The notes under the pieces are model-generated. The model did not search any database, was not told the origin of the DNA, and saw nothing but the letters and a program-made list of their open reading frames with translations. A stretch of DNA of 43,545 nt from Oscillospiraceae bacterium (GTDB taxonomy: Bacteria; Bacillota; Clostridia; Oscillospirales; UBA929), in contig JAIRTA010000029.1 in assembly GCA_031255175.1 (NCBI GenBank), positions 1 to 43,545 of the forward strand, in the 5' to 3' direction. A program made the translations under genes and the position numbers. Positions 23,302 through 43,326 of the stretch are shown here, piece by piece (the stretch's first letter is position 1; each line of letters opens with the position of its first letter).

Positions 23302-23847
23302 TTACAACACTGATTGCTGTAAACTTTTAATAAAAACTCGAAAGCTATGCGAAGTATTGCGTTCAATGTCAGCGTGTTCCGCGATTAGCTTTGCCCCCGC
23401 TATTTGTTCATAGCGCGGCAGATGTTTTTTCAATTCATCCTTCGGATTGACAATGCCATCTGGGATGCGATACCTGCTTTTCTGAGACAATGCTCGCAAT
23501 CCTGTTCTCGCAAACGCGAGTTCAACTGCCAACAAGTCCCCCCAATACCATGCTTCAAGCTCCATACAAGCAATTCTCACTACAACGTCCGAGCGAACCG
23601 CGCCGCATTTAGCTTTGAGTTCTGATTTAAGTATAACGCAGTCCCAACTGTCTTGGTCGTGAACGATAATGAATCTCGAATTTGGAACATTCCAAGATCG
23701 GAGAATCTTGGGTATATGTTTTTCGAGGTCTTGTTTGCCTCGATGTGGTATTATCTTGCAATTCAATTTCGGATAATAACGGGCAATTAGTGTTTCAAGA
23801 AATATTTTCATAGATTGTTCTTCGGTAAGTATGACCAGCATAATCAT
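23302..23847 (-). CDS. DUF4276 (TOPRIM-like) protein, putative defence effector
   Basis: Protein of 181 aa resembling the DUF4276 family, a TOPRIM-like nuclease fold. The N-terminus has the acidic strand-loop VILTEEQSMKIFLETLI, and the second acidic motif is FIIVHDQDSWDC. MELEAWYWGD and the tail NTSHSFRVFIKSLQ follow the family pattern. The start overlaps the stop of the ATPase gene as ATGA, so the two are translated together. In AbiL- and PARIS-like systems an ATPase of this kind holds a TOPRIM effector until phage infection. DNA composition is AT-rich, like the other two genes of the cassette and unlike the flanks. Confidence 0.72.
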   Translation of the reverse strand: MIMLVILTEEQSMKIFLETLIARYYPKLNCKIIPHRGKQDLEKHIPKILRSWNVPNSRFIIVHDQDSWDCVILKSELKAKCGAVRSDVVVRIACMELEAWYWGDLLAVELAFARTGLRALSQKSRYRIPDGIVNPKDELKKHLPRYEQIAGAKLIAEHADIERNTSHSFRVFIKSLQQSVL

Positions 23848-25037
23848 ACCCCCTCAATCAACAAATCGTGGCTCCATAAATAACCGAGCAAGTCACCGCC
23901 TTTAACGAAATCACAAATTTGTTTATCGTCAGCAGCGCGAATAATTTTCGTATAGCCATCATCACCTTTAAGCAAACAATATAATTCTTCCAAATGGACG
24001 GCATCCAATAAATCCGGCGAATGCGTCGAAATGAAAACTTGCCCATAATTATTATCACCATCACCTATGGAATACTGACGAAACTCCTCAATAAGACCGG
24101 CGAGCAATTTGGGGAACAGTTGATTCTCCGGTTCCTCGACACATAATAAAGCGTGGCGCTCAGGGTCGCTCAGTAATAACAAATATGTGAACATTTTTAT
24201 CGTACCATCAGACACATAGGACGATACAAATGGGTCGGTAAAATTTCCGTCTCGGAATCGAAGCAGTATGCGTCCGTCGTCCGTCGTTTTTGCTTTTATA
24301 TCAGTGACACCCGGCACACGTTCTGTCATGCGTTTTAAAACGCTCTCAAATCGTTCGGGATAGTTTTCAAGCATATACTGAGCGAAGGAAGCAAGATTAT
24401 TTCCCGTTCGGGAAAGATGCTGCGCCAATTCCACTTTGCGGATTTCCCGGGCGTCATCAATATGAAAATCAGATACAAACCAATCCTCTATCAGACGGCA
24501 AAACTTAGATACGGCAACAAAGTCCGCCATATTGCCTAACGCTTTAATGGCGAGGATGTACGGCAAATTAAGTGTTCTCTCTTTGCGTTCGGCTTCCTTC
24601 GCCGAAGCATAATCCGTTAGTTCTCCCTCAGCCGCAAAACCTTTACCTTCGTGAAACTCTAAGACACGCCACGGACTTCCTTTGCTGCCGCGACGGAATC
24701 GCAGTATTTCCGATTTAACGACGGGCAAGTTTTTATCATTCAAACCTATCGAAAGTTCATAAGTTATTAACGGTTCGTTTTTGTTAGGGCGGAATTGAAT
24801 CGCGAAAGATATTTTTCCGCTTTGACCGCGCGAGATTACCTCTTTAAAACCGCCTCGGGCTTGCAACGCAATCTTAACGTCGTTAATAAAGGCGTCGTTT
24901 AAGAAGCCGAACACATCGAACAGTGTTGTCTTACCGACTCCGTTGCGACCAACGAAAACTGCCATACCCGGCAAGTTGGTCAGCTTGACGTTTTGCAGCG
25001 ATTTGTAATTGTGAATTTCAAGTGATTCTATCCGCAT
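23844..25037 (-). CDS. AAA/ABC-type ATPase of an AbiL/PARIS-like defence pair
   Basis: OLD/RecF-like ABC-class ATPase of 397 aa. N-terminal MRIESLEIHNYKSLQNVKL is the typical start, then Walker A VGRNGVGKTT (about residue 30), a signature-like SYVSDGTIKMFTYLLLL, Walker B LLCVEEPENQLFP and the switch histidine in FISTHSPDLLDAV. Length and layout fit the AAA_15/AAA_21 proteins that partner TOPRIM nucleases. ATG at 25037 has GGGAGG six nt upstream. It overlaps the DUF4276 start by 4 nt. The gene is visibly poorer in GC than everything outside 23.3-25.5 kb. Role as phage sensor is inference from architecture. Confidence 0.85.
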   Translation of the reverse strand: MRIESLEIHNYKSLQNVKLTNLPGMAVFVGRNGVGKTTLFDVFGFLNDAFINDVKIALQARGGFKEVISRGQSGKISFAIQFRPNKNEPLITYELSIGLNDKNLPVVKSEILRFRRGSKGSPWRVLEFHEGKGFAAEGELTDYASAKEAERKERTLNLPYILAIKALGNMADFVAVSKFCRLIEDWFVSDFHIDDAREIRKVELAQHLSRTGNNLASFAQYMLENYPERFESVLKRMTERVPGVTDIKAKTTDDGRILLRFRDGNFTDPFVSSYVSDGTIKMFTYLLLLSDPERHALLCVEEPENQLFPKLLAGLIEEFRQYSIGDGDNNYGQVFISTHSPDLLDAVHLEELYCLLKGDDGYTKIIRAADDKQICDFVKGGDLLGYLWSHDLLIEGV

Positions 25038-25164
25038 AATGTTCCTCCCTCGTTTTTGGCAACAATCCGTCAAGCAAATTCTTCAATATCGCGACCTCAT
25101 CTTCCGACAAGAGTGCTCTCAATATGCTTTCAAAACGCGAGCAAATGTCACGTTCCGGTTCATT
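25018..25164 (-). other. In-frame continuation or small ORF between regulator and ATPase
   Basis: Directly after the TGA of the XRE gene the same frame continues, reading NEPERDICSRFESILRALLSE then DEVAILKNLLDGLLPKTREE and stopping at 25018, inside the ATPase start. The helical, charged composition looks coded. There is no ATG; a TTG at 25122 would give a 34-aa peptide. It is either the former C-terminus of the XRE protein cut off by a new stop codon, or a tiny separate gene with a weak start. A 14-codon ATG frame at 25163 in another phase has a GGAGG but no family features. Confidence 0.4.
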
Positions 25165-30384: not shown

Positions 30385-30762
30385 TCAGTTTTGGCGGTTC
30401 ACCTCGTCCAGCGTCTTGATAAAGGCGGCCACCGAGCGCAGCGCGTGGACATCCATGCGTTTGAGTTTTTCAATGGTGTCCGCCCGTAAGTTCCCCCGTT
30501 CCGACGTCCGCTCCGCCTCTTTGTCCCCGTAAATCTCTTTGTCCCCGTAAATGATCCACCCGGGCGGGCAGTGGTACAGCGTTTCGATCAGCTTGGCCAG
30601 CGGCTCCGAGATCGTGGTGTTTCTGCCGCTGGTCAGCAGATAGACATAGTTCGCGCTCACGCCTATGGTCTTCGCAAATTCCTTTTGCTTCAGGCCGTTG
30701 TCGGCGATAACACGGCGAAGCCTCCCCCGCAGGGTGGACAATTGCATCTCTTTATTCTTCAT
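30385..30762 (-). CDS. XRE-family transcriptional regulator
   Basis: Regulator of 125 aa. The N-terminal helix-turn-helix reads LRRVIADNGLKQKEFAKTIG followed by VSANYVYLLTSGRNTTISEP. A PPGWIIYGDKE segment leads to a C-terminal helix, TIEKLKRMDVHALRSVAAFI. An exact 18-bp tandem duplication adds a second IYGDKE. The start overlaps the end of the LuxR-type gene by 11 nt, with GGGAGG eight nt before the ATG, so the two regulators are co-expressed. Confidence 0.88.
   Translation of the reverse strand: MKNKEMQLSTLRGRLRRVIADNGLKQKEFAKTIGVSANYVYLLTSGRNTTISEPLAKLIETLYHCPPGWIIYGDKEIYGDKEAERTSERGNLRADTIEKLKRMDVHALRSVAAFIKTLDEVNRQN
30517..30552. repeat. 18-bp tandem duplication inside the XRE gene
   Basis: CTCTTTGTCCCCGTAAAT is present twice head to tail, in frame, encoding IYGDKE twice in the linker after the helix-turn-helix. 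Confidence 0.9.
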
Positions 30763-34028: not shown

Positions 34029-34140
34029 TTTACGACAATTCCTCTCCGATGATATAAGTCAAGCGCGTTTGTTCTTCGCAAAATTCCCCGTTTCCGGCAA
34101 GGGCCGTCCGAGAACCGCCCCCGGCTGCCTAAATCCTGGA

Positions 34141-34226
34141 AAAATCACCCCTGAAATCACCCCTTCGCCTTAAAATCACCCCTAAAATCACCTCAAAAAT
34201 CCAGCCGAATTTGCAAAAATCACCCT
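34141..34226 (-). repeat. Five iterated AAATCACC motifs upstream of the binding-protein gene
   Basis: Copies of AAAATCACC(CCT) begin at 34141, 34153, 34172, 34184 and 34216. Two pairs have exactly 12-nt periodicity. They lie 110-200 nt upstream of the solute-binding gene start. They may be repeated regulator sites. The rest of the interval 34029-34448 holds no gene and becomes AT-rich towards 34440. Confidence 0.6.
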
Positions 34227-34394
34227 TTTAGGATGATTACAGCCCGTGGGGAATTTGCTATGATGATGCCATCCTTCGAAGCCGGATCCGGCCTTATCCG
34301 TCCCTATCCGCCCTTCGGAGCCGGGGCCGTTCCGCAAAACCTGGAAAAAGAAAACCCATAAAATATCATATCATAAAAAACTAACTATATCAAG

Positions 34395-34421
34395 TTTTGT
34401 GAACAAAAATGATTTTATAAT
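34395..34421 (+). promoter_or_regulatory. Probable promoter and operator of the zinc-ribbon operon
   Basis: A consensus -10 TATAAT lies at 34416-34421 without a good -35. Just upstream is a 14-nt palindrome, TTTTGT-GA-ACAAAA (34395-34408), in the position of a promoter operator. The whole stretch 34370-34435 is AT-rich. Confidence 0.4.
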
Positions 34422-34448
34422 TAGAATACAATTTTGGAGGGATATTCG

Positions 34449-34616
34449 ATGAGAGAATCTGAAAAAGAGACATTGCTTGCCGAAATCATCGCGGCCATGA
34501 ACGGTATGGACGCCGACGCCCTGCAAAAGATCGCCTCTTTTGTAGCCGGCCTTGCGCTCGGACCGCAGGACAGCGTGAAAGACAAAGGAGGAGGGGACTA
34601 TGAGCGCCGACCATGA
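34449..34616 (+). CDS. Small acidic helical protein heading the zinc-ribbon operon
   Basis: Protein of 55 aa, mostly one or two helices: MRESEKETLLAEIIAAMNG, then MDADALQKIASFVAGLAL, with a charged tail. GGAGG lies 8 nt before the ATG. The MDxxAL-x2-(I/V)A-x-F-(I/V)-x2-L pattern also occurs at the C-terminus of the XRE regulator at 30385 (MDVHALRSVAAFIKTL), so it may be a dimerisation or interaction helix. The gene overlaps the next by 17 nt. No known family recognised. Confidence 0.65.
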   Translation: MRESEKETLLAEIIAAMNGMDADALQKIASFVAGLALGPQDSVKDKGGGDYERRP

Positions 34617-34896
34617 TTTTGCCGCCGTCCGGTACGCCATGACGAGCGAAAACGGCCTCTACCGCTTCACATTCTTTTGCGCGCTCTGCGGGAGAGGGCA
34701 CACCTCCGGGCTCATTCACGCGAATTCCGTAGAAATCGCCCTGCACCTCGCCCGGCAGGAAGCGCGCGGATATTTTAACGGCTGCCACACGTGCGGCCGG
34801 TGGGTGTGCGACGGCTGCTACAACATGGACGTGATGACGTGCGCCCGGTGCGCCGGGCACTATTTGTTACAAGGAGGACTGTCAGATGGCGAATGA
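34600..34896 (+). CDS. Cysteine-rich zinc-binding protein, short paralogue
   Basis: Protein of 98 aa with four CxxC-type pairs. The N-terminal strand YRFTFFCALCGRGHTSGLI is followed by a helix with QEARGYF and the cluster CHTCGRWVCDGCYNMD, then CARCAG. The same arrangement recurs in the protein at 35742-36500, which carries a glycine-rich insert between the two halves. It probably binds two or more zinc ions; no catalytic motif is visible. It overlaps both neighbours (17 and 11 nt), indicating a coupled operon. Function unknown. Confidence 0.72.
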   Translation: MSADHDFAAVRYAMTSENGLYRFTFFCALCGRGHTSGLIHANSVEIALHLARQEARGYFNGCHTCGRWVCDGCYNMDVMTCARCAGHYLLQGGLSDGE

Positions 34897-35392
34897 TTTG
34901 TTCGGAGGACTCGGCAATCTCGGCGGCGCGCTCGGCGGTTTGATGGGCGGCCTTGCCAAAAGCGGCCTTGTGCCAAAGGGCACGCCGGAGGGCAAGCTGC
35001 TGGCGGCGCAGACAGAGGTTTCCGACCTGCAAAAGCAGGAGAGCGAGCTGCTGCTGGAGATCGGGCGGCAGGCGTACAAGCAGAATCCGTCCGCGTGGCC
35101 GCAGGACGCGAAACTGAAGCTCATCCGGCAAAACCTCACGGCGGCGGGGGCCGCGCTGGATGAGGCAAAGCAGGCGCAGGAGGCGGCCGAGGCCGCGAAG
35201 AAGGCCGCCGACGCGGTGGGCCGCTGCCCGGAGTGCGGGCACAAAAACCCGGAGGGCGTGAGGTTCTGCCAGGAGTGCGGCACGTCTTTGACGGCGGCGG
35301 GGCCGAAGCATTGCACGGCCTGCGGCGCGGAACTCGCGCCGGGCACGCGGTTCTGCGGCTCCTGCGGGGCCCCCGCGAGGCAGGAGGGGTGA
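34886..35392 (+). CDS. Glycine-rich, coiled-coil double zinc-ribbon protein
   Basis: Protein of 168 aa in three parts. Residues 1-30 are glycine-rich (LFGGLGNLGGALGGLMGGLA), compatible with a glycine zipper or membrane-interacting segment. Residues about 35-110 form a charged coiled coil (LLAAQTEVSDLQKQESELLL; LDEAKQAQEAAEAAKKAAD). Residues 113-162 are a double zinc ribbon: CPECGHKNPEGVRFCQECG and CTACGAELAPGTRFCGSCG. The start overlaps the previous gene, and AAGGAGG lies upstream. Zinc ribbons of this type usually mediate protein contacts. Function unknown. Confidence 0.75.
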   Translation: MANDLFGGLGNLGGALGGLMGGLAKSGLVPKGTPEGKLLAAQTEVSDLQKQESELLLEIGRQAYKQNPSAWPQDAKLKLIRQNLTAAGAALDEAKQAQEAAEAAKKAADAVGRCPECGHKNPEGVRFCQECGTSLTAAGPKHCTACGAELAPGTRFCGSCGAPARQEG

Positions 35393-35393
35393 C

Positions 35394-35738
35394 GTGGCTA
35401 CATACAAACACCCCTGCGCGCATTGCGGCGAATTCATCGAGCGGGACGCCCGCCTCTGCCCCAAGTGCGGGTCCCGCTCCCCATTCGGGTACCGCTGCCC
35501 GACCTGCCTGCGGGAGATTCAAAAGGGCCCGCCGGTCTGCGCCGGGTGCGGGCGTTCGCTCACCGTCGTGTGCCCGACCTGCCGCCAGCCGACTTTCGCC
35601 GACGAGCGATGCGAGAAATGCGGCTCCGGGCTGATGATCCACTGCACCAATCCGCGCTGCGGCGCGTTGCAGTTCTTCGAAAACGCGAAGTGCACCGCCT
35701 GCGGCAAAAAAATCAAACGGGATGTGGGAGGGAGATAG
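35394..35738 (+). CDS. Multi-zinc-ribbon protein
   Basis: Protein of 114 aa that is almost entirely zinc ribbon. CAHCGEFIERDARLCPKCGS is followed by CPTCLREIQKGPPVCAGCG, CPTCRQPTFADERCEKCGS and CTNPRCGALQFFENAKCTAC, giving four CxxC...CxxC units in a row. GTG start at 35394, one nucleotide after the previous stop, with AGGAGG just upstream. It has no other domain; likely an assembly or adaptor protein within the operon. Confidence 0.75.
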   Translation: MATYKHPCAHCGEFIERDARLCPKCGSRSPFGYRCPTCLREIQKGPPVCAGCGRSLTVVCPTCRQPTFADERCEKCGSGLMIHCTNPRCGALQFFENAKCTACGKKIKRDVGGR

Positions 35739-35741
35739 ACG

Positions 35742-36500
35742 ATGCTTCAGGCCTTTACGCGAAATTACCAGGACAACAGCACCGACGCGGGGTTTCAGTT
35801 CACCTTTTACTGCGACATCTGCAACGACGGCTACAAGTCCGGTTTTGTCGAGAGCACAACGTACAAAAAGAAGGGGTTGCTGCGTGGGCTGGGGCAGGGA
35901 GCCAGCATCGCGGGCAGCCTGTTGGGCGGGAGAATCAGCAGCCTGGGTTACGGGGCGGACAGGGCGTCCAATGTGCTCTCCGAACGGTTCGACGGCAAAT
36001 CCCCCGAATGGCAGAAGGAGCATGAAAACGCGTTCGAGCGGTGCCAAAACGAGGCCCGGCAGCATTTTCACCGCTGCCCCAACTGCAACAAGTATGTCTG
36101 CGACCACTGCTGGAACGAGGACACCGGGCTCTGCACGGCCTGCGCCCCGCGTCAGGAGGTCTACGTCGCGCAGGCCCACGCCGCCGCGATGAAGCGGAAC
36201 ATCGACGAAAAGGGGCAAACCGCCACGGTTTGGCAGGGTGAGATCGAGTGCAAGACCACCCTCTGCCCCGCCTGCGGCAAACCCGCCGGAAGCGGCAAGT
36301 TTTGCAACAACTGCGGCGCTTCGATGGCATTGAAACTCTGCCCAAAATGCGGCGCGAAGAACGCGCAGACGGTCCGTTTCTGCAACAACTGCGGCCAAAA
36401 CTTCGCCGCCCCCGCCGCGAGCGGCAAATGCCCGGCCTGCGGACAGGACAACCCGCCCGGCACAAAATTCTGCGGCGGCTGCGGGGCAAAGTTGGCGTGA
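35742..36500 (+). CDS. Long cysteine-rich protein: shared zinc domain plus three zinc ribbons
   Basis: Protein of 252 aa. Residues 1-135 repeat the domain of the 98-aa protein: FQFTFYCDICNDGYKSGFV, then a glycine-rich insert of about 70 residues (LLRGLGQGASIAGSLLGGRI), then NEARQHFHRCPNCNKYVCDH and CTACA. Residues 170-252 are three zinc ribbons (CPACGKPAGSGKFCNNCG; CPKCGAKNAQTVRFCNNCG; CPACGQDNPPGTKFCGGCG). It begins 3 nt after the previous gene. The stop abuts an SLH-protein remnant with no spacer, which suggests a deletion joined them. Function unknown. Confidence 0.75.
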   Translation: MLQAFTRNYQDNSTDAGFQFTFYCDICNDGYKSGFVESTTYKKKGLLRGLGQGASIAGSLLGGRISSLGYGADRASNVLSERFDGKSPEWQKEHENAFERCQNEARQHFHRCPNCNKYVCDHCWNEDTGLCTACAPRQEVYVAQAHAAAMKRNIDEKGQTATVWQGEIECKTTLCPACGKPAGSGKFCNNCGASMALKLCPKCGAKNAQTVRFCNNCGQNFAAPAASGKCPACGQDNPPGTKFCGGCGAKLA

Positions 36501-36510
36501 CGAACGCGCG

Positions 36511-36927
36511 ACAGGCAAACCGCGCCCGAACGATCCGGTGACGCGGGCCGAATTCGCCACACTCGCGGCGCATTTCGACAATCTCTCGCCGGCCGGCGGG
36601 AACCAATTCAAAGATGTGGCCAACACGCACTGGGCCGTGAAATACATCAATTCGGCGGCGGCCAAGGGCTGGATCGCCGGGTACCCGGACGGCACATTCA
36701 AGCCGGAAGCAAACATCACACGCGCGGAGGTCGTCACACTGGTAAACCGCATCTTAGCGCGCAAGGCGGATCAGACCTACATAGACGCAAACCCGGCCAA
36801 ACTGCCACGCGGCTATTCCGATTTGCAGAAAGGCCACTGGGCGTATTGGGACATCATGGAAGCGTCGGTGGGCCACGATTACATCAAAGGCGCATCCGGA
36901 GAAACATGGACGACGGTCTATGAATAA
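36511..36927 (+). pseudogene. C-terminal remnant of an SLH-domain surface protein
   Basis: The frame starts inside an S-layer homology repeat (KPRPNDPVTRAEFATLAAHF), runs through one complete repeat (FKDVANTHWAVKYINSAAAK; GWIAGYPDGTFKPEANITRA) and ends in a partial repeat with the usual surface-protein ending HWAYWDIMEASVGHDYIKGA. A signal peptide and the protein body are missing. A GTG at 36538 could start a 129-aa product, but without export signal it would be non-functional as a wall anchor. It begins 10 nt after the zinc-ribbon gene. Confidence 0.65.
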
Positions 36928-36956
36928 TACGACCTACGAATAATACGGTCTACCGT

Positions 36957-37169
36957 TTGCCATTTGGCAATCGGCAGATCGCAATGGAGGCAAATTTGAA
37001 GGACAGCGTGTACTTCATGGCGGCAAACGGCGTGATCAACGGCACGGGCAACAACATGTTCAGTCCGCGCGCCACAACGAGCGACGAGGAAGCGCGCGGG
37101 TACGCGCAGGCGACGCGCGAACAGGCCCTTGTCATCGCGCTGCGCATGGTGGAAAAGCTGGGCAATTGA
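36957..37169 (+). pseudogene. Second surface-protein fragment
   Basis: The frame reads KDSVYFMAANGVINGTGNNM, FSPRATTSDEEARGYAQATR and EQALVIALRMVEKLGN. This resembles the closing segment of clostridial SLH or copper-amine-oxidase-like surface proteins. It is separated from the SLH remnant by stops and by a 16-nt imperfect tandem repeat (GAATAATACG twice, 36922-36950). An ATG at 36984 exists, with no signal peptide. Likely debris of one or two surface-protein genes. Confidence 0.5.
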
Positions 37170-37242
37170 CGCGGGCCGCCCTCGTTCCCCCCAAAAAGCC
37201 AGCGGGAGAACGCGGCGCCGGATGCGGAAAAGAGGTAACGCA

Positions 37243-37983
37243 ATGGCCATTTGTACGAAGTGCGGGGCGAGCGTCCCCGACGATGTGAAGTTTTGCATCT
37301 CCTGCGGGGGTCCCATGAAGCCGCAGGACTTCACAGGGAGAGGCGGCACGGAGCCGCAACCGGCGGGCTTTTCGCCCGGGGGCGGAAACGGGCAAACACA
37401 GCCCGCGCCGGTGAGCGGGCACCCGACGGGCGGCCCGTGGGAAACAGCCCCGGCGGCGTCCGCGCCGCAGACGGCGGAACGGTCCGCCGCGCCGCCGGGA
37501 CAGCCGCCCATCCAAGCGGCCCCGGCCTATCCGTTCCCGCCGCCGAACTACGCGCCGCCGCAGGCCCCGCCGCCGAATTACGCGGCCCCGCCGCAAGCGG
37601 CCCGCCGTGACGGCGCGCCGCCGCCGCCCAAAGGCAGCCCATACGCCGTCATCGGAACGGGCGGCTACATAGGCATGATGCTTCTGTTCGCCATACCCGT
37701 CATCGGCTGGCTGGCCTGCATCATCATGGCGTTCGCGGCGGGCAACCGAAACAGGCGCAACTTTGCCCGCGCCACGCTGGTGTTCCTGATCGTTGGCATC
37801 ATTCTCTGCGTCGCACTGTACCTCGTCTTCGACTGGATTTGGGAGGTCGCGCAGGGGTATCTGCAACAGACCGTCCACGAGACCACGGGCGGCCTGGGTG
37901 CGGATTCCGACGGTTTGAACGGCCTGTTTGGCCTGTTCAAGGGGCTCGACGGCCTCGACATCCCGGCCATGCCCGGACAGTAG
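37243..37983 (+). CDS. Zinc-ribbon membrane protein with proline-rich linker
   Basis: Protein of 246 aa. An N-terminal zinc ribbon, CTKCGASVPDDVKFCISCG, is followed by about 100 residues of proline/glycine/alanine-rich linker (PPPNYAPPQ-type repeats). Two transmembrane helices (GYIGMMLLFAIPVIGWLACIIMAF; ATLVFLIVGIILCVALYLVF, each split here at its core) come before a glycine/leucine-rich tail LNGLFGLFKGLDGLD. AGAGG precedes the ATG. The zinc ribbon would face the cytoplasm. Together with the next gene it gives the operon a membrane component. Confidence 0.8.
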   Translation: MAICTKCGASVPDDVKFCISCGGPMKPQDFTGRGGTEPQPAGFSPGGGNGQTQPAPVSGHPTGGPWETAPAASAPQTAERSAAPPGQPPIQAAPAYPFPPPNYAPPQAPPPNYAAPPQAARRDGAPPPPKGSPYAVIGTGGYIGMMLLFAIPVIGWLACIIMAFAAGNRNRRNFARATLVFLIVGIILCVALYLVFDWIWEVAQGYLQQTVHETTGGLGADSDGLNGLFGLFKGLDGLDIPAMPGQ

Positions 37984-38120
37984 CGAAGCCAAAATATGTA
38001 ATTTTATAGAAATTACGCAACGCGCGGCAGTCATGGCAGTCATGGCGATCATAAAAAGCAAAGTTTGCTCCGACCGGCGGGAGAGGATCTCCCGATCATT
38101 GAGAAAGAGAGGCAACAAAT

Positions 38121-38642
38121 ATGGTATTTTGTGGAAATTGTGGGGCACAGGTGCCGGCGGGCCTGAAATTCTGCCCGTCCTGCGGAAAAGCGGCGGTGGC
38201 GGCCCCGCCGCCGCAGATGCAGCAACAGATGCCGCCGCAGCAGGCGTATCGGCCCCCCGTCGTGCCCGGTGCGCCTCAACAGGCCGACATCCGGGACGCG
38301 CAAGACAACAAGGGCATGGCGATCGTCGCCTATCTTCTGTTCTTCATCCCGCTCCTGACCGGCGCGCACAAAAATTCGCCCTTTGTGAAGCATCACACCA
38401 ATCAGGGGACGGTGCTGTTCATTCTCTGCGCCGCGTGGAGCGTGGTCAACTGGATTTTGACCGCGCTCTTCACGGCCCTCCTGTTTCGCGCGGCCACATG
38501 GGGCCTGTGGGGCGCCATCAGCATCATCTTGGGCCTGTTTTGGCTGATCCCGGCCGTTCTCTGCGTCGTGGGCATCATCAACGCCGCAAACGGCAGGATG
38601 AAGCCCCTGCCGGTCATCGGCGGGATCAAGATCATCAAGTGA
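38121..38642 (+). CDS. Zinc-ribbon membrane protein, DUF4870-like
   Basis: Protein of 173 aa. N-terminal zinc ribbon CGNCGAQVPAGLKFCPSCG, a glutamine/proline-rich linker, then a three-helix membrane domain of the DUF4870 type: KGMAIVAYLLFFIPLLTG, FVKHHTNQGTVLFILCAAW and LGLFWLIPAVLCVVGIINA. Such small Tic20-like domains are widespread, with unknown function. It is 12 nt upstream of a lipoprotein gene. Confidence 0.82.
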   Translation: MVFCGNCGAQVPAGLKFCPSCGKAAVAAPPPQMQQQMPPQQAYRPPVVPGAPQQADIRDAQDNKGMAIVAYLLFFIPLLTGAHKNSPFVKHHTNQGTVLFILCAAWSVVNWILTALFTALLFRAATWGLWGAISIILGLFWLIPAVLCVVGIINAANGRMKPLPVIGGIKIIK

Positions 38643-38654
38643 GGGGTGACGGGC

Positions 38655-39683
38655 ATGAGGAAGATACTGGCCGGGCTGCTGGCGGCGGCGCTGGTATTGT
38701 CGCTGACGGCCTGCAACGGCATCAAGGGCGCGGTGCAGGAGAAAACGCGGGAACTGCTGGGCGGCGCGGCCGGACAACCGGCGCCCGCGGACGGGACAAA
38801 AGCGGGCGGTTCCCCCGGCGGGAGCGGCGCCGCGCCCGCCGGCGGGAAGCGCCCCATCGCCAACGCCGCCAATCCCGGCGGATATTGGGATAGGCTGGAG
38901 GCGGAATGGGGCAACGCCCCCGAGGAGGGCTATGTCTGGACAATCACCATAGACAGCGCCGAAACGCTGGACATCATGGGCCTGGGCAGCGTCACCTACA
39001 ACCTCGATCTCTCCTGCTCCCATGTGGGCAAGACCATGCGCGGCGTCTACAGGGGCGAGATGGCGATGGATTACGCTGCCGACCTCTCCGGCATGGTGGA
39101 GCTTTTGACCCTGACGGGCGGCTCAATCGACTACGACGCCGATGGTTGGTTCAAAAACGGCAATTTTATCATGGAACTGGACGGTTACGACGACTATGCC
39201 TCGGAGGCGTTTGTCGAGTCCTTTCAGCAGACGAACGACATGAGCGCCGAGGAACAGGCCATCGCGGACGCCTACCTGGGGCAGTTTCTGTCCGATATGG
39301 GCACGCCGGAAAAGGATTTTGAACAAGCGGACACCCCCGCCGGGCAATGGTTTGACTGGGAGTTTCACATGACCGAGGGCGACATGAGCGGTTACATCAA
39401 CATGACCGGCATCGCCTACGGGACGACCGGCGGCTCCGGCTCGGTCGACGCGGGCGGCACCTACATGGAGGGCTACGCCACGGCATCCGCCCCCCTGGTC
39501 GGCACTTTTTCCGAGCGTTACAGCGACACGATTGACAAGCCGTTTCCCTATCTCATCAATGTCTACGACAACGACCAGGTCGTGTTTGTGCTGCACTCAG
39601 CCAACGGCGGGCCGGTGCAGGTTCGCTTCTACGGCACAATCGATAAGATCCCCGTGGAAGAAACCACGCTGTTGAGGCCGTAA
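38655..39683 (+). CDS. Lipoprotein of unknown function (1)
   Basis: Exported lipoprotein of 342 aa; the lipobox LTAC puts the modified cysteine at residue 20. A glycine/alanine/proline-rich spacer (residues 40-75) leads to an acidic beta-rich domain with GYVWTITIDSAETLDIMGLG, GGSIDYDADGWFKNGNFIME and GYINMTGIAYGTTGGSGSVD. ATG at 38655 is preferred over a GTG nine nt earlier. I do not recognise a family. Its place between the zinc-ribbon membrane proteins and the PH-domain protein suggests an envelope role for the cluster. Confidence 0.78.
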   Translation: MRKILAGLLAAALVLSLTACNGIKGAVQEKTRELLGGAAGQPAPADGTKAGGSPGGSGAAPAGGKRPIANAANPGGYWDRLEAEWGNAPEEGYVWTITIDSAETLDIMGLGSVTYNLDLSCSHVGKTMRGVYRGEMAMDYAADLSGMVELLTLTGGSIDYDADGWFKNGNFIMELDGYDDYASEAFVESFQQTNDMSAEEQAIADAYLGQFLSDMGTPEKDFEQADTPAGQWFDWEFHMTEGDMSGYINMTGIAYGTTGGSGSVDAGGTYMEGYATASAPLVGTFSERYSDTIDKPFPYLINVYDNDQVVFVLHSANGGPVQVRFYGTIDKIPVEETTLLRP

Positions 39684-39710
39684 TCACGGCGATGAAAACG
39701 GGAGGATGAC

Positions 39711-40130
39711 ATGGCAAAAATTGTAGTGGAAGATGAAGAAATCCTTTGGAAAGACCGCAAGCGGCATTGGGGGCTGCCCGTCAGCTTTACCCGCTATGAG
39801 GTGAGCGGTGGCCGGTTTGTCGTCCGCAAAGGGTTTTTCCGCACCGAGGTCAACGAATTGCTGCTCTACCGCATTTTGGACTTGAAACTGGTGCGTTCGC
39901 TGGGGCAAAAGCTGTTTCGCGTGGGCACGCTCACACTGTACAGCGCGGACAAAACGGATAACGTGCTCGAGGTTAAAAATATCAAGCGGCCGGACACGGT
40001 GCGCCGTTTTCTCAGCAAGCAGATTGAACGGGAACGGGCGGCCCGAGGCATCGCGGGGCGCGAACTGTACGGCGCGGCCCGTGGTCCGGACGGTTTGCCG
40101 GATTTGGACGGCGACGGGCTGCCGGGCTGA
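39711..40130 (+). CDS. Bacterial PH-domain protein (YdbS/bPH2-like)
   Basis: Cytoplasmic or peripheral protein of 139 aa. The bPH2 pattern is clear: PVSFTRYEVSGGRFVVRKGF, then FRTEVNELLLYRILDLKLVR and FRVGTLTLYSADKTDNVLEV, closed by a basic helix (RRFLSKQIERERAARG). The C-terminal 30 residues are low-complexity. YdbS-type proteins normally have membrane helices before the domain; here they are missing. GGGAGGATGAC precedes the ATG. Confidence 0.8.
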   Translation: MAKIVVEDEEILWKDRKRHWGLPVSFTRYEVSGGRFVVRKGFFRTEVNELLLYRILDLKLVRSLGQKLFRVGTLTLYSADKTDNVLEVKNIKRPDTVRRFLSKQIERERAARGIAGRELYGAARGPDGLPDLDGDGLPG

Positions 40131-40157
40131 AAATCAAACATACTGGAGGGAACCTCA

Positions 40158-41369
40158 ATGAAAAAAATCATCGGCCTCGCGCTGGCTTTGACCTTGGCGC
40201 TCTCGCTCACCGCCTGTTTGGGCCGCGGCCGCGTGCTGCCCGCGCTGAACGCGCTGAACGGCGAAGGCGAAGGCGAGGCGGCCGCGCAGGCGAACGCCGG
40301 GAGCGGCGCCCAGCCCGCGCAGGCCGGCAGTGTTTCGGGCAAGGATATGGAACAGGCCATCGCGCAAGCTCTCTCGGCCATCGGCGGCCCGTCGCGCATC
40401 ACGCTCTGCGGCGGCGGAAGCATCAAGTTTGAGCCCGCGAATGAGTGGGTTGGCATGTGGGGCGACAGTTGGGAGATAAGCGACCCCGACATGAGCCACG
40501 CGGATCTGCTGGAATCCATCGACAGCCAGCTCACCACCGCGGGCTTCACCAAAGGCGGCGGGCTTCTGGGCTGGCAGTGGACCGTCCACGCCGGCGTCCA
40601 AAATATCGGCCTCATCCTCGGCAACGAGGAGGGCGACACGATCACGCTCTACATGACGCATTTCCCAAACTGTTACTCCGCGGCGTACATCGCCGAACAG
40701 GAGGCGGTCATGCCAAAAATGATCCCCGCCGCGTGGGCTATGGAAGTTTTGCCCGAAAACTTTCTCATCAAGTGGGAGACCAAGGGCGGCTGGCTGTATA
40801 CGCTGGCGCGCAAGGACGGCAGTTGGCTTTACGCCTCGGACGGAAGCCAATCGGACTCAGATTGGGCGTCCGACTACGCGACGTATTACGCCGCCGTTTT
40901 GCAGCCCGACGGCAGCTACCAAAATTACGAGTACACCGACGAAAACATGACGCCCCGCGAAAGGGACTGGTTCACATCGTCGAATGAGACGGTTGACGAC
41001 GCGCTGCTGAACATTCTCGACTACGAATATGAAAGCGGCATGAGCGACAGCGGGAATCTGTCCATGTGGGTGCAGATGTGCAAAGACTACGCGGACGGCA
41101 CAAGCTCGGCGCAAATGCGTTTCAGCATCACCGGAAGTATGGTGGTTCTGCGGACGGAGGAGATAGCCGGCGTGGTCTGCGACGTTGTGGGCAACGAAGG
41201 CGGCGGGATGTTCGGAACGGAACAGGAATGGGCTTACGACCCCACAACAGGGCTGTTGTTCCGCTACAGCAAGGACGACGACTATGACAGCGAAACGCCG
41301 CTGGATGATTTTTTCAAAGTTGTGGAATACACCGACAGCCCGGCGACGCTGGGGAATTATCCGGGTTAA
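40158..41369 (+). CDS. Lipoprotein of unknown function (2)
   Basis: Exported lipoprotein of 403 aa; lipobox LTAC with cysteine 20. A small-residue spacer precedes a mixed alpha/beta domain with PSRITLCGGGSIKFEPANEW, GWQWTVHAGVQNIGLILGNE, FLIKWETKGGWLYTLARKDG and VVCDVVGNEGGGMFGTEQEW. TGGAGGG lies ahead of the ATG. No family recognised; not obviously related to the first lipoprotein. Last gene of the operon before the nested terminator-like structure. Confidence 0.78.
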   Translation: MKKIIGLALALTLALSLTACLGRGRVLPALNALNGEGEGEAAAQANAGSGAQPAQAGSVSGKDMEQAIAQALSAIGGPSRITLCGGGSIKFEPANEWVGMWGDSWEISDPDMSHADLLESIDSQLTTAGFTKGGGLLGWQWTVHAGVQNIGLILGNEEGDTITLYMTHFPNCYSAAYIAEQEAVMPKMIPAAWAMEVLPENFLIKWETKGGWLYTLARKDGSWLYASDGSQSDSDWASDYATYYAAVLQPDGSYQNYEYTDENMTPRERDWFTSSNETVDDALLNILDYEYESGMSDSGNLSMWVQMCKDYADGTSSAQMRFSITGSMVVLRTEEIAGVVCDVVGNEGGGMFGTEQEWAYDPTTGLLFRYSKDDDYDSETPLDDFFKVVEYTDSPATLGNYPG

Positions 41370-41389: not shown

Positions 41390-41482
41390 GCGCAACTCTT
41401 TCGGCGGATCCTCCTCAACCGGTTTGCCCGTCGGCGGCCCTTTGAGGACATCACATTTCGCCCGAAAGAGTTGCGCTTTTTT
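41390..41482 (+). terminator. Long nested hairpin ending in T6
   Basis: Outer arms GCGCAACTCTTTCGG (41390-41404) and CCGAAAGAGTTGCGC (41462-41476) pair perfectly and are followed by TTTTTT. The 57-nt interior contains a second stem, TCCTCAA (41412-41418) with TTGAGGA (41442-41448). It is either an elaborate terminator or a small structured RNA. The rest of 41370-41679 holds the promoter of the TIR-like gene and nothing else recognised. Confidence 0.75.
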
Positions 41483-41679: not shown

Positions 41680-42780
41680 ATGGGGGCGCCTGGTGTGGAC
41701 GGAAGCGTGAGGGTGTTCATCGCGTCATCTGTCGAAGGGCTTGATGTCGCCTACGCGATACAGGGGCTTTTGGAGTACGCCGCGGACTGTACCGTGTGGG
41801 ACCAAGGCGTCTTTGAGCCCGGGTCTTATACGTTGATCGACCTCGCCGCCGCCGCCGCGGAGTCCGACTACGGCATTTTTGTCTTCACGCCGGACGACGT
41901 GCTGAAGCTGCGCGATGAGACATACAAAACGACGAGAGACAACGTGATCTTGGAGCTGGGTTTCTTCATAGGCGCGCTGGGCCGGGAGCGCTGTTTTGTC
42001 GTCACCCCGCGCGGGGGCGAAGACATTCATATGCCCACAGATTTGGCGGGGCTGAATCCGCTCAAATTCAACGCGAAAAGAAGCGACGGAAATCTGCGGG
42101 CCGCGCTGGGGCCGTGCGCCAATCAGATCAAGAGCGCCATGCGAAAGCACGGGCCCCACAGGGAACAAATCCCGGCCGACCTTGTCTCTCAGATCAGAGA
42201 CGTCGGCTTGAGCGCCTTCTATGCCTCGCGTGACAGCTACGCAAAATACCGGACGGATACGGCGTCTATAGACAAATACATCGGCACGGCCAAACAGACA
42301 TTGAAGATGGTGGGCGTCTCTCTGACGACGGCCATCCAATTTGACAACGTATCGCACATCTTAAAATCGCGCCTGGAAACGCAGCCGGATTTTCAAGTTG
42401 TCATATCGCTCCTAAACCCGTACCGGGACGCGCTGTATCAGTCTCTGGCGCCGTTTTTTGATATGGATTGCGAGGCGTTGAAAAACAAAACAAAAGAGTC
42501 GCTAAAAAAGCTGTTCGACCTGAAAAACAGTCTCCCCAAAGACATCAAAGACAGGTTTGAGATCACACTGCACAACGCCATCCCCTTTGGCAGCGCGATC
42601 ATGCTCGACGAGGAGATGATCGGCGGCAAAATACAGATCGAAGTCAAACCGTACCGAGAGGGTTGGAGAAAAAGTTTCGCCTATGAGATCGTGAACGACG
42701 GCGGGGCGTTTTTTGAGACGGTCAAGACAAGTTACACCCATTTGATTAAAGACGGTCTCCGTTACGACGGCACACTTTGA
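41680..42780 (+). CDS. TIR-like nucleotide-binding protein (CAP12/PF10137 type) with C-terminal domain
   Basis: Protein of 366 aa. Residues 10-150 match the predicted nucleotide-binding TIR-like family: VRVFIASSVEGLDVAYAIQ, CTVWDQGVFEPGSYTLIDLA, YGIFVFTPDDVLKLRD, TRDNVILELGFFIGALGRER and MPTDLAGLNPLKFNAKR. Some members degrade NAD+ when triggered by cyclic nucleotides in CBASS. Residues 165-366 form a second domain that I do not recognise (SAFYASRDSYAKYRTDTASI; LHNAIPFGSAIMLDEEMIGG); it may be the sensor. No cyclase is present nearby. ATG at 41680 has a weak site; GTG at 41695 with GGGGG upstream is an alternative. A Nudix gene follows 24 nt downstream. Confidence 0.82.
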   Translation: MGAPGVDGSVRVFIASSVEGLDVAYAIQGLLEYAADCTVWDQGVFEPGSYTLIDLAAAAAESDYGIFVFTPDDVLKLRDETYKTTRDNVILELGFFIGALGRERCFVVTPRGGEDIHMPTDLAGLNPLKFNAKRSDGNLRAALGPCANQIKSAMRKHGPHREQIPADLVSQIRDVGLSAFYASRDSYAKYRTDTASIDKYIGTAKQTLKMVGVSLTTAIQFDNVSHILKSRLETQPDFQVVISLLNPYRDALYQSLAPFFDMDCEALKNKTKESLKKLFDLKNSLPKDIKDRFEITLHNAIPFGSAIMLDEEMIGGKIQIEVKPYREGWRKSFAYEIVNDGGAFFETVKTSYTHLIKDGLRYDGTL

Positions 42781-42804
42781 CTCCACGGCTGAGGGGGCCC
42801 GATT

Positions 42805-43326
42805 ATGGCGGTTCACAGCGCGGGCGTCATGCTTTATCGCTTCAACGCCGGCATTTTAGAGGTATTGTTGGTGCATCCCGGCGGGCCGTTTTGGGCGCGC
42901 AAAGACGACGGGGCCTGGTCGATCCCGAAGGGGTTGGTCGAGGGTTCGGAAGACGTCTTAAGCGCGGCCAAGCGCGAATTTACGGAAGAAACGGGTTTTG
43001 CCATCGACGGAGATTTTCTCGACTTGGGTTCTCTGACGCAGCCGAGCAAAAAGATCGTCACGGCGTTTGCTTTGCACCGTGACGTGGACGCCGCGCAAGC
43101 GGTGAGCAACACATTTACACTCGAATGGCCGCCCAAGTCGGGGCGGATTGTCTCCTGCCCGGAAATCGACAGGGCGGAATGGTTCCCTCTCCCGAAGGCC
43201 CGGGAGAAAATCGCGAAGGGACAACGCGAATTCATCTCGAGACTGGCGGCGCTGCTGCACATTTCAGATAAGGAAGAAATTGTAAATTATAGCGCGGAGA
43301 ACGCCCAGCTCTCCCTGTTTGACTGA
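42805..43326 (+). CDS. Nudix hydrolase with C-terminal clamp-binding motif
   Basis: Nucleoside-diphosphate-X hydrolase of 173 aa. The Nudix box is complete: GLVEGSEDVLSAAKREFTEE followed by TG, matching Gx5Ex7REUxEExGU. Preceding LLVHPGGPFWARKDDGAWSI is typical of MutT/Ap4A-type relatives. The last six residues, QLSLFD, match the bacterial beta-clamp-binding consensus QLxLF, a motif also present in DinB of this window. It lies 24 nt after the TIR-like gene. Substrate not predictable: oxidised dNTPs, dinucleoside polyphosphates or ADP-ribose are all possible. Confidence 0.88.
   Translation: MAVHSAGVMLYRFNAGILEVLLVHPGGPFWARKDDGAWSIPKGLVEGSEDVLSAAKREFTEETGFAIDGDFLDLGSLTQPSKKIVTAFALHRDVDAAQAVSNTFTLEWPPKSGRIVSCPEIDRAEWFPLPKAREKIAKGQREFISRLAALLHISDKEEIVNYSAENAQLSLFD

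Follow-up and report, generated by a model that had tools for sequence, protein, structure and literature searches.

XylFII-LytS is one of the systems in which a solute-binding protein is combined with a sensor kinase. In the CuaD system of Ruminiclostridium cellulolyticum, an orphan solute-binding protein gene stands beside that of a membrane sensor (PMC10384115). DadR, HcdR and CadR of Eggerthella lenta are LuxR-type activators with 10-12 transmembrane (TM) segments, which are embedded in the membrane, carry a C-terminal LuxR helix-turn-helix (HTH) and are encoded beside their targets (PMC9734109). In Bacillus subtilis, pspA-ydjGHI combines zinc-ribbon proteins with membrane anchors and with soluble partners on the inner side of the membrane, its envelope genes being under inducible control by sigma-W (PMC8581546, PMC11237479), and HAAS-PadR pairs, in which PadR is joined to a membrane protein with a permease-prefix domain, have been linked to envelope stress (PMC11237479). 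Here we describe a gene cluster that resembles each of these in part. It lies on contig JAIRTA010000029.1 (assembly GCA_031255175.1) of an Oscillospiraceae bacterium; the stretch of 43,545 nt that makes up its positions 1-43,545 is referred to below as the window. We give a slightly better than even chance to the reading that this operon encodes an inducible, PspA-independent cell-envelope response which is driven through an extracellular sensor and uses zinc-ribbon proteins as a scaffold below the membrane.

The window operon shares with the Psp system its mixture of zinc-ribbon, membrane-anchored and soluble proteins, but its regulator is a membrane-bound LuxR-type protein (F7) with a solute-binding lipoprotein (F6) and not sigma-W. 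PspA/IM30 (PF04012) was found neither among the operon proteins nor in the genome of this organism, whereas PF04012 was matched in 9 of 14 control genomes, and the operon proteins gave no Pfam match to SPFH, TPM, PspC or Toastrack. Because PspA is absent from both operon and genome, the operon may work like a Psp system but is not one. Like the DadR type, F7 is membrane-embedded with a C-terminal LuxR HTH and is encoded beside its presumed targets, and multi-TM LuxR proteins occur in some related loci; it differs in having few TM segments instead of 10-12, an extracellular sensor region, a HAMP-like linker, a solute-binding partner, and envelope rather than enzyme targets. As in the CuaD system, the solute-binding protein gene is an orphan next to a membrane sensor, but F7 itself carries the DNA-binding domain and there is no kinase or response regulator. 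HAAS-PadR-like pairs adjoin archaeal copies of the operon's zinc-ribbon core, but only in some of the related loci, and the window has F6 and F7 instead. Searches of the literature on zinc-ribbon, LuxR and solute-binding operons found no description of the whole system, subscription papers being largely outside their coverage.

A preliminary description of this DNA, made from its letters, had reported ten intact plus-strand genes, the first five overlapping or abutting. Its gene content stands: all ten open reading frames (ORFs; g01-g05 and g07-g11, Table 1) are uninterrupted and follow the reported arrangement, the first five overlapping their neighbours or lying 1-3 bp from them, and six proteins (98, 168, 114, 252, 246 and 173 aa) contain CxxC or zinc-ribbon clusters, with Pfam zinc ribbons in the last five of these. 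Both lipoproteins have their lipobox Cys at position 20 (the 345-aa protein being numbered from ATG 38655), and the bPH2 protein matches its family well above the cut-off. The DUF4870-type domain that had also been named was not sustained at the Pfam cut-off (20.3 versus 25 bits for the 173-aa protein), and an NCBIfam scan gave no specific name for any operon protein scanned. Passed over in that description were F6, F7, the operator, a tandem-PH partner and a decayed SLH-domain gene, all described below.

We searched for relatives of the 252-aa protein, g05, in 84,980 species genomes. The scan returned 298 stretches, and the best 80 of these were examined. They belong to Clostridia, Actinobacteria, one Chloroflexi bin and archaea (Methanomassiliicoccales, Bathycorpusculum and others); to judge by record titles, gut and digester samples are the main source. 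Homologues scattered in no fixed order would have refuted the preliminary description, but for the trio g03-g04-g05 (168, 114 and 252 aa) the result is in its favour: most of the 80 loci have these genes in the same order with almost no space between them, with the 114-aa gene beside g05 in 72 and the 168-aa gene in 57, at gaps of mostly a few bases. Since order and tight spacing recur across Clostridia, Actinobacteria and archaea, this core trio is more than a chance cluster. Closer to home, g05 is encoded in 4 of the 18 genomes sampled from the family and in 11 of the 391 sampled from the class, counting the organism's own; outside that genome the identities are 54-84%. The g05 tree needs 11 label changes among archaeal, actinobacterial and remaining rows, although it contains many weak branches and metagenome bins may hold foreign contigs; the core has therefore likely been transferred horizontally between phyla. 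No homologue, and thus no carrier element, was identified among the phages, plasmids and viral contigs searched.

Within the core, an alignment of 58 g05 sequences has a mean column identity of 74% with most cysteines invariant, and g03, of which 32 homologues were aligned, has a Gly-rich N-terminus, a predicted coiled coil and two zinc ribbons. The preceding 98-aa protein, g02, is a short paralogue of the N-terminal module of g05 (41% identity to g05 residues 95-135, and 50% to the homologue in locus L147). Short ORFs resembling g01 precede the 98-aa homologue in L033, L059 and L103, as judged by eye. An AlphaFold2 model of g05 (predicted local distance difference test score, pLDDT, 72.5) gave no significant or confident match, and no RING fold, in searches against the PDB; sequence matches to zinc ribbons of DNA polymerase D or ribosomal proteins were rejected as reflecting the generic ribbon only.

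Upstream of the operon, F6 and F7 are encoded on the opposite strand, and an F7 homologue is divergent to the core in most of the loci that have one. F7 consists of an extracellular sensor region, a HAMP-like linker and a C-terminal GerE HTH; four hydrophobic segments in the window protein, and mostly two or three in homologues, flank the large extracellular region. As F7 is one of only three GerE genes in the 2.5-Mb genome, its position beside the core is unlikely to be due to chance. The divergent intergenic region holds five copies of the half-site AAATCACC, including the one within a palindrome, ATCACCCTTTTAGGATGAT, and no copy is found elsewhere in the window; the pattern ATCACCC-N2..8-GGATGATTA has a single match in the whole genome, and no second palindrome precedes g07. 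Palindromes of this form are present in 7 of 13 divergent regions, compared with 0.005 expected from Markov shuffles. A TANNNT -10 box follows the operator by 21-22 nt in all 18 aligned sites. The operator is thereby placed at about -43, a position expected for an activator of RNA polymerase. The presence of the operator also follows the recognition helix of F7: loci whose F7 has the helix SINTIKTH contain it in 16 of 19 cases, those with other helices in 1 of 14 (Fisher 1.3e-5, the loci not being fully independent). Among the three exceptions, L147 has a one-mismatch site and the intergenic region of L143 is lost at a contig end. In L024 the operator precedes the core but F7 is encoded beyond the core's other end, so the operator is part of the core promoter, not just a feature of the F6-F7 pair. 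Together, helix co-variation, promoter position and the genome-wide pattern described next give strong computational support to F7 as the protein that recognises this palindrome (34219-34237) and controls transcription to the right from the -10 box at 34259. Separately, F7 proteins with other helices (L035, L055, L057, L058 and L093) seem by eye to have other palindromes, for example ACTATCCTTGGGATAGT in L035.

As an independent test, the 391 genomes of the class were scanned for the operator followed, after 21 nt, by a -10 box. This gave 18 sites in 13 genomes, and the reversed control pattern had no match. An F7 relative is encoded in 43 genomes, which include all 13 with a site (chance below 1e-12 when calculated by hand, a figure made less striking by relatedness, as the 13 genomes represent 7 genera). 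The zinc-ribbon core lies directly downstream of the operator in the window and in one other genome. Other targets are a DUF4870-like membrane protein together with a DUF6591 lipoprotein and a g03-like coiled coil, a g02-like zinc protein, other lipoproteins, and three AraC-type regulators (identified from their sequences) and one MalT-like regulator. Relatives of g08 that lack the zinc ribbon stand downstream of the same operator in other genomes, and the N-terminus of g09 is weakly similar to the DUF6591 lipoproteins found under it. F7 loci without a core (L140, L141, L144, L146, L148, L157 and others) have a simpler operon under this operator, made up of the DUF4870-like membrane protein, the DUF6591 lipoprotein and sometimes the g03-like coil, with no zinc ribbons. 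Operator copies far from F7 precede AraC- or MalT-type regulators at G196:C1:2922742 (L174), G174:C33 (L161) and G073:C30 and C71 (L163, L175), which suggests a regulatory cascade.

Proteins encoded near the core were compared by clustering and profile searches over 89 loci, the window included. The commonest partner, F2 (about 440 aa), occurs in 34 of the 68 loci whose downstream sequence extends for 2.5 kb, and is missing from the window and from its genome. F2 matches no Pfam family above the cut-off, but its AlphaFold2 model (mean pLDDT 84) contains two PH-like domains in tandem, each a seven-stranded barrel with a helix cap; Foldseek matched the PH-PTB structure 3ml4 (E 5e-5) and VIA-align 4tyz (Z 13.6 over 102 residues, root-mean-square deviation 2.5). 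F2 is confined to core-bearing genomes in both samples: all four F2 genomes of the class fall among the 11 with g05 (about 3e-7, a hypergeometric estimate by hand), and the single F2 genome of the family also carries g05, on a different contig. In the window, g07 and g08 have hydrophobic segments besides their N-terminal ribbons, i.e. they are zinc-ribbon proteins with a membrane anchor. Of 21 loci with a DUF4870-like protein beside a g05 core, 16 (counted per locus) have an N-terminal zinc ribbon on that protein, versus none of four F7 loci without a core; the g03-like coil of L140 also lacks zinc ribbons. This suggests, without proving, that the ribbons tie the membrane proteins to g03-g04-g05.

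Homologues of g08, g07 and g09 are encoded near the core on the same strand in 23, 14 and 5 of the 89 loci, those of g09 in L033, L048, L051 and, weakly, L099. These numbers bear on an alternative in which only g01-g05 form the conserved, operator-controlled operon and g07-g11 are separately transcribed neighbours. The gene array is in fact discontinuous: the genes for the 252- and 246-aa proteins stand 740 bp apart with the SLH remnant filling the gap, another gap of 138 bp lies ahead of g08, many core loci have no g07-g09 homologue, and g10 and g11 are unique to the window. But g07, g08 and g09 homologues do recur beside the core on its strand, and genes for g08-like proteins and lipoproteins are themselves targets of the operator in other genomes. 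We regard two separate units as somewhat unlikely.

The regulators vary as well. F6 has divergent homologues in 13 other core-bearing loci (mean column identity 57%) and adjoins F7 in 17 of 18 F7 loci without a core. LuxR-type proteins of at least two architectures, some of them multi-TM, are encoded near the core in 30 of the 89 loci, and archaeal core loci have PadR and the permease-prefix-domain membrane protein instead. We asked whether F6 might sense a sugar or a plant or host compound, the operon adapting the cell surface for growth as part of a nutrient- or host-glycan-induced programme. F6 is a carbohydrate-type binding protein (SBP_bac_8), the homologues come mostly from gut, termite and digester genomes by their record titles, and multi-TM LuxR regulators of Eggerthella lenta switch on metabolic genes upon substrates (PMC9734109). 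Against this, neither the operon nor the genes immediately following the 18 operator sites include a recurrent enzyme or transporter, and in other loci the core stands under unrelated regulators, including the PadR and permease-prefix pairs. A nutrient programme thus appears unlikely.

The preliminary description had further proposed that the operon might serve stress responses or defence, since it sits beside a TIR-like/Nudix module. That module (41680-43326) encodes a TIR protein of the CAP12/Pycsar type, whose C-terminal half is unassigned, and then a Nudix hydrolase, and may be a separate defence- or NAD-related pair. The TIR gene does match PF10137 (CAP12/Pycsar TIR, 107 bits) and TIR effectors of PADLOC, and the core has a patchy distribution with apparent horizontal transfer, as an anti-phage module that included both genes might. 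Yet TIR and Nudix genes accompany the core in none of 93 related loci searched, a terminator-like repeat lies between them and the operon, and PADLOC returned no match for g02-g05, g08-g10 or the tandem-PH protein (g01, g07 and g11 being outside the scan). Neighbours of the homologues give only scattered defence matches with none in common, phages, plasmids and viral contigs hold no homologue, and the regulon is made up of envelope genes and regulators. A defence role is improbable and we rejected it; what remains of the earlier proposal is an uncharacterised, conserved operon in which envelope partners accompany a core of zinc proteins. A signalling complex of the prokaryotic RING/ubiquitin-like kind, in which g02 and the N-terminal module of g05 would be RING-type adaptors, is more improbable still: g02 exceeds the Prok-RING_2 cut-off (24.5 versus 22.4 bits) and g05 has a related Cys module, but the match covers merely 26 of 56 profile positions (24-49), the g05 model matches no RING fold, and ubiquitin-like, E1, E2 and JAB proteins are absent from the 25 commonest families of 149 neighbouring proteins.

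In the envelope response that we favour, an extracellular ligand would be bound by F6 and presented to the outer domain of F7, as in other pairs of solute-binding protein and sensor; F7, presumably as an activator and in response to stress, would then act at the operator to drive transcription of the zinc-ribbon core and its envelope partners. The products would be parts of the envelope: the membrane proteins g07 and g08, the lipoprotein g09, the soluble core g03-g04-g05 and, in many other genomes, the tandem-PH protein, an assignment supported by recurrence. More tentatively, g03-g04-g05 might form a scaffold below the membrane, touched by the Gly-rich N-terminus of g03, with the ribbons of g07 and g08 as adaptors that dock both proteins onto it. 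Core conservation, the linkage of F7 to the operator, the promoter geometry and the envelope nature of the targets are what the computation establishes; an envelope role is moderately supported, and the scaffold we only infer. Several observations weigh against this reading. Most core loci have no F7, and F7 is also found without the core in some 30 genomes, so the regulon is wider than the window operon. The sugar-binding-like family of F6 is compatible with nutrient sensing too, and the 740-bp gap with its SLH remnant may separate g01-g05 from g07-g11. Neither g10 nor g11 has a homologue among the related loci, which makes both uncertain members of the system; the correlation of ribbon with core rests on few core-less loci and has five exceptions; and the structure of g05 contributes nothing on function.

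Table 1 Features of the operon and its control region (coordinates in the window)
Feature	Coordinates	Strand	Remarks
F7, membrane-bound LuxR-type regulator, 575 aa	30752..32479	-	PF00196 GerE 55.4 bits, residues 506-560
F6, extracellular solute-binding lipoprotein, 462 aa	32640..34028	-	PF13416 SBP_bac_8 89 bits; no adjacent permease gene
Half-site repeats	34139..34195	+	starts 34142, 34154, 34173, 34185; upstream of palindrome
Palindromic operator, putative F7 site	34219..34237	+	consensus ATCACCC-N-GGnTGAT
-10 box TATGAT	34259..34264	+	21 nt past operator; operator centre near -43
g01, small helical ORF, 55 aa	34449..34616	+	starts at ATG
g02, zinc protein, 98 aa	34600..34896	+	Prok-RING_2-like, PF14445 24.5 bits
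g03, core protein, 168 aa	34886..35392	+	PF13240 56.7 bits
g04, core protein, 114 aa	35394..35738	+	multiple zinc ribbons; PF12773 DZR 46.4 bits
g05, core protein, 252 aa	35742..36500	+	split N-terminal Cys module, C-terminal zinc ribbons
Decayed SLH-domain remnant	36538..37169		stop-split; between g05 and g07; PF00395 62.8 bits
g07, membrane protein, 246 aa	37243..37983	+	N-terminal zinc ribbon; PF13240 31.9 bits
g08, DUF4870-like membrane protein, 173 aa	38121..38642	+	N-terminal zinc ribbon
g09, lipoprotein, 345 aa	38646..39683	+	lipobox
g10, bPH_2 protein, 139 aa	39711..40130	+	PF03703 46.4 bits, cut-off 22; membership uncertain
g11, lipoprotein, 403 aa	40158..41369	+	C20 lipobox; no Pfam family matched; membership uncertain
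Terminator-like inverted repeat	41390..41476	+	15-bp perfect arms, then T run (TTTTTT after second arm)

Two further regions of the minus strand were noted. Downstream of F7, an XRE-type HTH protein (30385-30762) has a C-terminal helix, TIEKLKRMDVHALRSVAAFIKTL, that by eye resembles g01 (LLAEIIAAMNGMDADALQKIASFVAGL). At 23302-25073, an AAA-type ATPase-like gene adjoins a gene for a 181-aa protein, an arrangement reminiscent of ATPase/nuclease defence pairs.

The core recurs in hundreds of loci of anaerobic gut, termite and digester microbes, archaea included, and the libraries searched hold no specific family model and no known function for any of its proteins or for the tandem-PH proteins. 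Through the regulon, lipoproteins and zinc-ribbon membrane proteins are linked to a membrane sensor of a new kind. The operator, its co-variation with the recognition helix and the genome-wide targets open the regulation to direct tests with short DNA probes. Tentatively, and with rather less confidence than we place in the envelope response itself, we suggest that zinc-ribbon and tandem-PH proteins may make up a new class of scaffold, shared horizontally by bacteria and archaea, that would serve PspA-independent envelope repair or remodelling under exchangeable membrane-bound transcription factors, including a new LuxR type that is coupled to a solute-binding protein and has its own regulon. 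For this organism, which has no PspA, the operon is a candidate envelope-maintenance system.

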